64,000 bases of DNA from the NCBI GenBank assembly GCA_902567855.1, contig CACFOQ010000004.1, forward strand, positions 61,404 through 125,403, in the 5' to 3' direction. Shown in pieces: positions 32,567 through 35,497 of this stretch (the first letter of the stretch is position 1; every line of letters starts with the position of its first letter). The translations under genes were made by a program, and so were the position numbers. The DNA comes from an uncultured Alphaproteobacteria bacterium. Lineage in GTDB: Bacteria; Pseudomonadota; Alphaproteobacteria; HIMB59; GCA-002718135. The notes under the pieces are model-generated. The model did no database searches. It had not been told where the DNA came from and saw only the letters and a list, made by a program, of their open reading frames with translations.

Positions 32567-32611
32567 TGGTCGGGGAGAAAGGATTCGAACCTTCGACCCC
32601 CTGGTCCCAAA
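32567..32611 (-). repeat. Distal att-like direct repeat: orphan 3' fragment of tRNA-Pro (anticodon loop to CCA)
   Basis: TGGTCGGGGAGAAAGGATTCGAACCTTCGACCCCCTGGTCCCAAA, identical to 34275-34319; no tRNA 5' half follows. Confidence 0.95.
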
Positions 32612-32640
32612 TTATATTAACACTAATTTTGAAATTATAA

Positions 32641-32673
32641 AAGACCTCAGAAACACTAGGGTTCTGGGATCTT
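32641..32673. other. Imperfect inverted repeat inside the islet near its distal end
   Basis: AAGACCTCAGAA / TTCTGGGATCTT arms (10 of 12 complementary) around a 9-nt spacer. Confidence 0.5.
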
Positions 32674-32746
32674 AAGAAATATCTGTGATTTTCACTTTAT
32701 TGTATTTTATTAAATTTTATCAAACTAAGTAAAGGATTTACTGTAT

Positions 32747-32772
32747 CACTAAGTGTAACACTCATTTATAAT
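32747..32772 (+). promoter_or_regulatory. Operator-like overlapping palindromes and -10 box of the islet operon
   Basis: CACT-A-AGTG overlapping AGTGT-A-ACACT (32747-32762) followed by TATAAT (32767-32772), 8 nt before the ATG at 32781. Confidence 0.55.
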
Positions 32773-32780
32773 GTTGATTT

Positions 32781-33476
32781 ATGAAAAAACAAAATACATC
32801 TCATGCAGTCATGGCTAAAAGATTTGAAGAAAATGATAGCTTAGATGATTTTCCTACCCCACCTTGGGCGACAAGAGCATTATTTGAGTCTACATTAAAA
32901 AAATACAAATCAAAATTAAAAAAAATGAAATGTTTAGAGCCTGCATGTAACAGAGGCTATATGTCAAGAGCTCTTAAAGAATATTTTAAAAAAGTAGATT
33001 CTCGAGATGTATGGGATTATGGTTTTGGAAAGGTTCAGAATTTCTTAGAAACTAAATACGAAAAAAATTCATTTGATTGGGTTATTACAAATCCTCCTTT
33101 TAATCTTGCTGAGGAATTTTTAATCAAATCTTTGAATATATGTTCTCATGGCACAGCAATCTTAGCAAGAACAGTATTTTTAGAAAGTGTTGGAAGATAT
33201 AAAAATATATTTTCTAAAAATCCACCAACATACTTTGCTCAATTTACTGAACGTGTTCCTATGATAAAAGGTAGAGTTGATAAACAAGCCTCAACTGCAA
33301 CGGGATATGCTTGGTTTATTTGGATAAAAAATTCCAAAATAAATTCAAAACTTACCTGGATAGAACCATGTAGAAAATTATTGGAAAAAGAATTTGATTA
33401 TGAAGATTTTGATAAAACAATAAATCCTAAAAGGAAAAAGAAAAATATTTTAAGATCTCAATATAAATTATTTTAA
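32781..33476 (+). CDS. SAM-dependent DNA (adenine-type) methyltransferase, phage/islet-borne
   Basis: FPTPPWATRAL N-terminus; motif I-like CLEPACNRGYMSRAL; motif IV DWVITNPPFNLAEEF. Confidence 0.75.
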   Translation: MKKQNTSHAVMAKRFEENDSLDDFPTPPWATRALFESTLKKYKSKLKKMKCLEPACNRGYMSRALKEYFKKVDSRDVWDYGFGKVQNFLETKYEKNSFDWVITNPPFNLAEEFLIKSLNICSHGTAILARTVFLESVGRYKNIFSKNPPTYFAQFTERVPMIKGRVDKQASTATGYAWFIWIKNSKINSKLTWIEPCRKLLEKEFDYEDFDKTINPKRKKKNILRSQYKLF

Positions 33477-34148
33477 ATGACTCAAAAACTTCAAAAACAA
33501 CTTAAACCATTGATTTATTCAACAATAGAAAAATTGAAAAGTAAAGAATTTAAAAAAGATCCTATTGGTGGAGAACATTTTTCAAAAATAACAAGTTTGA
33601 TGAGTAGCGCTTATAAACGGCATGGATTAATACTCGAATATTCCTTTTTAAATCTCCTTAAAAATAATCAGAATTATGATACTTGGGAAGATAAAGAGTT
33701 TAAAGTTTCTAGACCGGCAGATGATCTTGCTAGTTCCTTTATTGAAAATCCATTAGAAGTTTACAATACTGAAACTAGCTACAGTACACATAGAGCTGTA
33801 AGAACTTTGCAAATTGATTTAATTACATATAATAAAAGAACGAAAGAATTGTCTGCTTATGAAATTAAAAGAAGTAATGGGAGTCATGATGCTGGTAAAA
33901 AAAGACAAATTCTAAGAGATATACTTTGTGTCCAAGTTTTATTAAAATCATATGGTGAGAGTAAAAATTTTGAGGTAAAAAGTGCACGAAGCTATATAAT
34001 TAATTATTATGGTATAAGAGACATTGTTAAACCATTTTCAATTATAAATACTGAATTAGATGAACACTTTGGTTTTTCAGTATATAGACAAATTGAAGAG
34101 ATTAATGAAATATATAGAAAAAAATTATTTGAGATTTTAAGCAGATAA
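33477..34148 (+). CDS. Putative PD-(D/E)XK nuclease / restriction endonuclease-like protein
   Basis: QIDLITYNKRTKELSAYEIKRSNGSHDAGKKRQ: D-xn-ExK core; ATG directly abuts the methyltransferase stop codon (TAAATG). Confidence 0.6.
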   Translation: MTQKLQKQLKPLIYSTIEKLKSKEFKKDPIGGEHFSKITSLMSSAYKRHGLILEYSFLNLLKNNQNYDTWEDKEFKVSRPADDLASSFIENPLEVYNTETSYSTHRAVRTLQIDLITYNKRTKELSAYEIKRSNGSHDAGKKRQILRDILCVQVLLKSYGESKNFEVKSARSYIINYYGIRDIVKPFSIINTELDEHFGFSVYRQIEEINEIYRKKLFEILSR

Positions 34149-34188
34149 GTTGTATTTTATTAATTTTTATAAAATTAAGTATATGACC

Positions 34189-34210
34189 AACTGGTCTAAG
34201 ACCAGTTTTT
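34189..34210 (+). terminator. Rho-independent terminator of the islet operon
   Basis: AACTGGTC-TAA-GACCAGTT followed by a T run. Confidence 0.8.
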
Positions 34211-34274
34211 AGTGTTTGAAAATATTTAAAAAAATAACAAAAAGCATAACAACCGGTATAGTATGCTCAATTTT

Positions 34275-34351
34275 TGGTCGGGGAGAAAGGATTCGAACCT
34301 TCGACCCCCTGGTCCCAAACCAGGTGCGCTACCAGGCTGCGCTACTCCCCG
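34275..34351 (-). tRNA. tRNA-Pro(TGG), intact copy, containing the proximal 45-bp repeat
   Basis: Reverse strand CGGGGAGTAGCGCAGCCTGGTAGCGCACCTGGTTTGGGACCAGGGGGTCGAAGGTTCGAATCCTTTCTCCCCGACCA. Confidence 0.95.
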
Positions 34352-34431
34352 AAATAAAAAGCTTATAATGATTATCGTATGAAAAACAATTATTTAGTTG
34401 GAAATTTAAATGTTTTGAGTTAAATTGAATG

Positions 34432-34498
34432 TCTTTGGGGTGCTTAAATGCTGAGATTTATACCCTCGTAACCTGATCTGGATAATGCCAGCGGAGGA
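34432..34498 (+). ncRNA. TPP riboswitch (THI element)
   Basis: GGGGTGC...GCTGAGA...TACCC...CCTGATCTGGATAATGCCAGCGGAGG immediately upstream of thiB. Confidence 0.93.
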
Positions 34499-34501
34499 AA
34501 T

Positions 34502-35497
34502 ATGAAAAAAATTTATATATTATTATCTTTAACTTTATTGCTTTCATCTAATGTCTATGCAAATGATAAAGATACTTTAACTGTTTATACATATGATTCA
34601 TTTGTTTCTGAATGGGGGCCTGGACCCATAATTAAAGAAATATTTGAAGAAAAATTTGATGCTAATTTAGAGTTAATTGCTGTTGATAGTGCAGCCACAC
34701 TTTTATCAAAAATTATTTTAGAAGGTAAAACTTCAAAAGCTGATGTTGTGTTAGGTCTAGATATGAATTTATTAGATGCTGCTAATAAATCAGATTTATT
34801 TCAAAAACATTCATTAAAGAATTTAGATCAGTTAATTCAATTACCTATTAGATGGGAAAGTGATAATTTTATTCCATATAATTATGGATATTTTGCTTTT
34901 GTATATAATAATAAAAAATTTATTAATCCTCCAAAATCTATGAATGAATTGATAAATGAAACTAAAGTAAGATTAGTAATTCAAGATCCTCGTACATCAT
35001 CACCTGGATTAGGCTTACTAACTTGGATGAAAGCAATTTACGGAGATAGTGCTGGGGATGAGTGGAGGAAATTAAACAAAAAAATTATATCTGTAACAAA
35101 AGGATGGACTGATTCTTATTACAATATCTTTTTAGCTGGAGAAGCTGACATGGTTTTAAGTTATACTACTTCACCTGCTGCACATATCATGTTTGAAGAA
35201 AATTATGATTATTCAGCTATAACTTTTGAAGAAGGTAATTATATTTCAATTGAATTTGCAGGAATTTTAAAAAATTCTAAAAATCATACTTTAGCTAATA
35301 AATTTTTAGAATTTATTTTAACTGATGATTTTCAATCTATTATACCTTCTACAAATATTATGTATCCTGTAACTAATAAAACTAATTTGCCAGAAGCATA
35401 TAATTTATTAAATATACCTAAAGCCATTCAAATGGATCCGAGTTCTATAAACGACAATAAGAATATATGGATTGAAGAATGGTTAAATGCTTCATAA
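34502..35497 (+). CDS. thiB: Thiamine ABC transporter substrate-binding protein
   Basis: Signal peptide, LTVYTYDSFVSEWGPGP, QDPRTSSPGLGLLTWM; TPP riboswitch upstream. Confidence 0.9.
   Translation: MKKIYILLSLTLLLSSNVYANDKDTLTVYTYDSFVSEWGPGPIIKEIFEEKFDANLELIAVDSAATLLSKIILEGKTSKADVVLGLDMNLLDAANKSDLFQKHSLKNLDQLIQLPIRWESDNFIPYNYGYFAFVYNNKKFINPPKSMNELINETKVRLVIQDPRTSSPGLGLLTWMKAIYGDSAGDEWRKLNKKIISVTKGWTDSYYNIFLAGEADMVLSYTTSPAAHIMFEENYDYSAITFEEGNYISIEFAGILKNSKNHTLANKFLEFILTDDFQSIIPSTNIMYPVTNKTNLPEAYNLLNIPKAIQMDPSSINDNKNIWIEEWLNAS

Follow-up and report, generated by a model that had tools for sequence, protein, structure and literature searches.

Type II restriction-modification systems with PD-(D/E)XK nucleases, such as MunI (PDB 1d02), consist of adjacent methyltransferase and nuclease genes. 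MunI targets CAATTG, and the MunI methyltransferase is MT-A70-like. In phages of alphaproteobacteria, DNA methyltransferases that mimic CcrM have been described; the tested specificity of one of them, PhiLM21_p027, is GANTC, the site of CcrM, and a phage enzyme at merely 33% identity to PhiLM21_p027 likewise targets GANTC (PMC5537653). They are encoded by orphan genes near replication modules, and why many alphaproteobacterial phages encode GANTC methyltransferases is an open point (PMC5537653). Additionally, predicted novel restriction endonucleases have been described in the setting of MORC-type operons (PMC2292703).

Phage satellites of the PICMI, PICI and P4-like types carry an integrase of their own. 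Cis-mobilizable elements (CIMEs), which derive from conjugative elements, are flanked by att sites, have no own integrase and presumably move by means of a foreign one. CIMEs have been discussed in PMC5704250, and the smallest satellite of characterised activity measures 6.1 kb (PMC10803314). The Charybdis elements (PMC12324425), known small marine elements, were also considered for the locus described here and were rejected, since they measure 4.6 kb, contain about ten genes and have an archaeal host.

Here, we analyzed a window of 64,000 nucleotides, which is the whole stretch of DNA under study, from an uncultured alphaproteobacterium. The genome (27% G+C, 1.3-Mb assembly) suggests a streamlined host, and we infer a marine setting. 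In our overall reading, which we consider fairly probable, the window contains a compact Type II-like pair, likely directed at GANTC, that forms the sole cargo of an integrase-less element most likely brought in by a phage integrase.

The nuclease gene and its predicted fold

The ORF at 33477-34148 on the forward strand starts with ATG and encodes 223 aa. A methyltransferase gene lies directly upstream, and its TAA stop codon at 33474-33476 is immediately followed by the nuclease ATG, thereby forming a TAAATG junction. Searches with the nuclease against Pfam, PHROGs, NCBIfam and PADLOC gave no match, and a PDB sequence search returned nothing convincing. The putative catalytic residues are E54, D114, E129 and K131. 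D114 was invariant in 23 of 23 aligned nuclease homologues and K131 was kept in 22 of them, while E129 was retained by most and was N, S or D elsewhere. We regard this D-xn-ExK core as more than a chance motif.

An AlphaFold2 model of the nuclease, for which the input alignment consisted of 12 natural sequences, showed a pLDDT of 91 and a pTM of 0.86. The core order of the PD-(D/E)XK fold was present in the model, namely a helix, three strands, a helix and a strand (alpha-beta-beta-beta-alpha-beta). D114 was located on the second core strand (residues 107-119), and E129-x-K131 ended the third (residues 124-131). Foldseek comparison with the PDB gave the restriction enzyme MunI (1d02) as the top match (probability 0.96, E 0.007, TM 0.35), followed by R2 endonucleases, TnsA, McrC, Bse634I, AddAB and EcoRI. 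According to the model, the product is almost certainly a PD-(D/E)XK nuclease; the predicted fold is well supported, and the family is remote from every solved family. The locus shares adjacent methyltransferase and nuclease genes, fold and catalytic motif with Type II systems such as MunI, and some nuclease relatives pair with MT-A70 methyltransferases as in Type II systems. In contrast to MunI, the window nuclease is outside the searched sequence families, its TM-score to MunI is low, and its cleavage activity and target are predicted.

The earlier note had proposed a PD-(D/E)XK nuclease of unnamed family on the basis of a D-xn-ExK core, and these results bear it out. The quoted stretch, QIDLITYNKRTKELSAYEIKR, was found in the ORF, with its residues conserved and on the expected strands; the predicted structure contains the PD-(D/E)XK core rather than lacking it, the Foldseek matches are PD-(D/E)XK enzymes, and no family was returned by the sequence searches listed above. 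Separately, we observed that a GANTC site (GACTC) at 33479-33483 overlaps the nuclease start codon.

Relatives and conserved pairing with methyltransferases

A single-sequence scan of ~85,000 species yielded a sole match, L002, which was 51% identical and showed the same methyltransferase-nuclease order, with a tyrosine integrase and a primase-polymerase protein adjoining the pair. Profile searches added ~20 distinct nuclease loci. IMG/VR scans with one sequence or a two-sequence alignment missed the relatives, while a nine-sequence alignment gave 14. None was found in 50,697 phage records, and the two significant plasmid relatives were both from Alphaproteobacteria. In a phylum-wide draw, in which the number of other-class genomes was uncounted, the nuclease matched in the same class only.

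A methyltransferase of the window type adjoined the nuclease in seven loci, being arranged in tandem in the window, L002 and L103, and convergently in L104, L108, L109 and L114. An MT-A70 methyltransferase adjoined it in another set of loci (L105, L113, L115, L116, L121, L122 and L124), and L112 contained a broken nuclease copy with MT-A70 pieces close by. One nuclease family thus occurs, in varying gene orders, with two kinds of adenine methyltransferase that are unrelated to each other, as would be expected if a restriction enzyme were accompanied by a protecting partner.

We then considered whether the product is instead a phage-derived accessory nuclease, for example for DNA degradation or recombination, with the methyltransferase serving phage replication or anti-restriction. 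The methyltransferase family is common in phages, the nuclease being present at just 1 of 80 IMG/VR loci that carry it; several nuclease relatives are located in prophages, and some have no methyltransferase neighbour, all of which would fit such a role. However, the repeated tandem and convergent pairing with two unrelated methyltransferases argues against it, as do the isolation of the window pair from any phage gene and the association of an intact active site with the partner, described below. We therefore regard an accessory role as improbable.

Among distinct loci that have a methyltransferase but lack a GHKL/helicase module, the set of E54, D114, E129 and K131 was complete in 10 of 10, whereas it was complete in just 1 of the remaining 9 (Fisher p 1e-4, an optimistic value because the loci are related and kinship was ignored). 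Because the pairing is conserved and the intact catalytic set tracks the methyltransferase, the window genes very probably represent a restriction-modification pair.

The loci with altered residues include L108, L109 and L117-L120, which adjoin a GHKL ATPase and a helicase. The GHKL domain and the Mrr-type nuclease domain on the helicase were confirmed by Pfam in L109 and assigned by ORF similarity in the other loci. In the nuclease form beside this module (L108:452-6014, L109:3184-10188 and L117:798-5648), E54 was replaced by G or Q and E129 by N; the L109 module was also near a C5-cytosine methyltransferase. In a Methylobacterium plasmid (L004:333-6780), a nuclease relative with S in place of E129 adjoined a CBASS operon and a 3'-5' exonuclease. 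The sub-branch with the GHKL ATPase and Mrr-domain helicase resembles the MORC/paraMORC restriction operons (PMC2292703). The window pair differs from those operons in having neither a GHKL nor a helicase gene and in keeping its catalytic residues intact, whereas both E54 and E129 are replaced in the MORC-like sub-branch. Possibly, the GHKL/helicase module is an uncharacterised defence system with the nuclease relative as its recognition subunit. Family members without a methyltransferase, or within the ATPase/helicase module, may be inactive as restriction enzymes.

As for the earlier note, its proposal of a restriction endonuclease functionally paired with the methyltransferase agrees with the recurrent pairing (the seven window-type loci and the further MT-A70 loci) and with the intact catalytic set. 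Homologs confined to phage structural/packaging modules without a methyltransferase, which it had named as contrary evidence, were not the pattern observed, as prophage relatives adjoin methyltransferases. The term restriction endonuclease holds for the methyltransferase-paired relatives and needs qualification for the sub-branch with altered catalytic residues.

The likely target of the pair

The window methyltransferase (32781-33476, forward strand, 231 aa) is an N6-adenine DNA methyltransferase with an NPPF motif (phrog_799, E 2e-49). It was 49% identical to PhiLM21_p027 over 215 aa, and the six other NPPF partner methyltransferases showed 52-63% identity to the same enzyme. By its sequence and NPPF motif, we assign it to the CcrM-mimicking (GANTC) phage family, with which it shares size and the NPPF and flanking motifs (PMC5537653). 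Unlike those orphan phage genes, it is paired with a nuclease and located outside any phage. The pairing had been noted earlier, and the place of the enzyme in the GANTC phage family is new here.

Because of the 49% identity to the GANTC enzyme PhiLM21_p027, GANTC is the likely target of the pair, and on balance we favor it as the site of the nuclease. This assignment derives from the methyltransferase family alone; the MT-A70 partners are uncharacterised and have no known target. A restriction-modification pair with another target, either because the methyltransferase drifted or because the nuclease reads another or partly overlapping site, appears rather unlikely to us. It would be consistent with the pairing of the nuclease family with unrelated MT-A70 methyltransferases and with MunI, a CAATTG enzyme with an MT-A70-like methyltransferase, as closest fold neighbour. 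Moreover, most methyltransferase-less nucleases were altered at catalytic residues though their hosts carry RAMA/CcrM, as if CcrM gave them no protection, which counts against GANTC. On the other hand, all seven NPPF partners lie within 49-63% identity of PhiLM21_p027, and an enzyme as distant as 33% retains GANTC (PMC5537653).

The host genome encodes its own CcrM-like protein (358 aa), which combines an N6_N4_Mtase domain with a RAMA domain. RAMA was not significantly enriched in nuclease carriers (12/13 vs 104/144 for the class, p 0.19), and an enrichment of CcrM among the carriers was dropped as an argument at this p value. GANTC was depleted in the window (115 seen vs ~149 expected) and in phage contigs (167 vs 288), and this was set aside as evidence because other palindromes were equally or more depleted.

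The carrier element at tRNA-Pro

The two genes lie in a 1,708-bp element inserted at an intact tRNA-Pro(TGG) gene (34275-34351, reverse strand), which was identified by ARAGORN and Rfam. The left att core at 32567-32611 duplicates the 3' half of this tRNA over 45 bp and forms a perfect direct repeat with the right att core at 34275-34319, within the intact gene. In two congeners the site was empty and uninterrupted, with flanks 97-98% identical. The flanks overlapped by exactly 45 bp, and the 1,708 bp thus represent a clean site-specific insertion. Elements placed by a tyrosine integrase at a tRNA 3' end show this pattern, in which the insertion is clean, the 3' segment of the tRNA is duplicated and relatives have the site empty. 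The element contains only the methyltransferase and the nuclease, plus non-coding ends of about 170 and 126 bp, including the left arm (32612-32769) and the right arm (34173-34274). Neither an integrase nor a GHKL ATPase gene was found in it. The earlier note had described the gene pair correctly; that the pair makes up the entire cargo of a small element integrated in a tRNA gene is an addition of the present analysis. For the left arm, a candidate hairpin was dropped because the folding was no better than that of shuffled sequences. Beside the tRNA, a TPP riboswitch at 34426-34518 precedes an apparent thiamine transporter substrate-binding gene, an ordinary feature.

Two further insertions, L194 (1,677 bp) and L227 (1,218 bp), were found in the same tRNA-Pro in two genomes from another genus of the same family. 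Their left ends were 94-95% identical to that of the window element and 99% identical to each other, and both elements were devoid of an integrase. The cargo of L194:2640-4368 (G045) consists of a T5orf172/GIY-YIG protein and a putative secreted protein; that of L227:2821-4114 (G093) consists of a small zinc-ribbon-like protein and another putative secreted protein.

In IMG/VR, 28 contigs (L166-L193) carried 37 bp of the att core. Among the matches listed, none continued into the rest of the tRNA, as expected of attP. A tyrosine integrase (PF00589) was confirmed beside the core in L167, L176 and L192. The left arm of the window element was 77% identical to the attP arm of L167, L176, L179, L184, L185 and L190 (77-79% for the left arm shared with L176-type contigs), and its right arm showed 86% identity to that of L192, so that the two arms resemble attP arms of different phage types. 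The right arm of L194/L227 was 83-84% identical to L176, including the repeated AGTCTATCA, which is also found in the left arm, and it aligned with the 3' end of the L176 integrase gene. An exact IMG/VR scan with part of the left arm gave no match; elements so short would hardly appear there. The core-bearing contigs are podovirus-like, and their attP seems to come in two arrangements: the integrase lies upstream of the core in L176 and downstream of it in L192. The repeats of the phage arms change together on both sides, being AGTCTATCA in L176 and AGTATACCA in L167.

The resemblance of the element ends to attP arms of integrase-encoding podovirus-like phages suggests mobilisation in trans, and integration by a phage-type integrase acting in trans is probable. 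Most simply, the elements would copy a phage attP and rely on the phage enzyme for their integration. Alternatively, the 1,708-bp element could be what is left of a prophage or larger island after the loss of all but one cargo, now dead and not moving in trans. The match of integrase-less arms to phage attP arms, the alignment of the L194/L227 right arm with the integrase gene end, and the two phage types matched by the window arms are all compatible with decay. However, the same left end recurs in three elements from two genera, which carry three different cargos and contain no phage gene; the insertion is clean, with its empty-site flanks still 97-98% identical, and both cargo ORFs are intact. 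We consequently find a dead remnant doubtful and prefer mobilisation in trans, although the mixed arms make the present mobility of the window element less certain.

Discussion

We propose that the methyltransferase modifies the adenine of a short recognition sequence, most likely GANTC, and that the nuclease most likely cuts DNA in which this sequence is unmarked. The paired methyltransferase would shield host DNA and, should GANTC be the target, the host CcrM would do so as well. The element carrying the pair most likely entered with the help of an integrase from phages that use the same attachment site, and it may still move in this way.

The elements resemble phage satellites such as PICMIs (PMC10803314) in being small, in occupying a specific chromosomal site, in carrying defence cargo and in their likely dependence on phages. 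They differ from PICMI-type satellites in measuring 1.2-1.7 kb and in having no integrase, regulator or primase. Similarly to CIMEs, the window element has att flanks and no own integrase, whereas its ends resemble phage attP arms. More tentatively, a class of 1-2 kb integrase-less tRNA-Pro elements in these streamlined alphaproteobacteria may copy both attP arms of temperate podovirus-like phages and swap cargo, with one such cargo nuclease guarding the CcrM (GANTC) mark through cleavage of incoming DNA without it.

The nuclease family is missing from the searched catalogues; since a relative of its partner methyltransferase has been characterised, it can be put to a direct test. Should GANTC be the target, alphaproteobacterial restriction would be coupled to the mark that CcrM sets in the cell cycle, and this link would offer one reason for the many phage GANTC methyltransferases in this class, the point left open in PMC5537653. 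Compared with the phage satellites known to date, the carrier would be far smaller, and it would show that a two-gene defence cassette can spread among streamlined bacteria even when it encodes no mobility gene itself.
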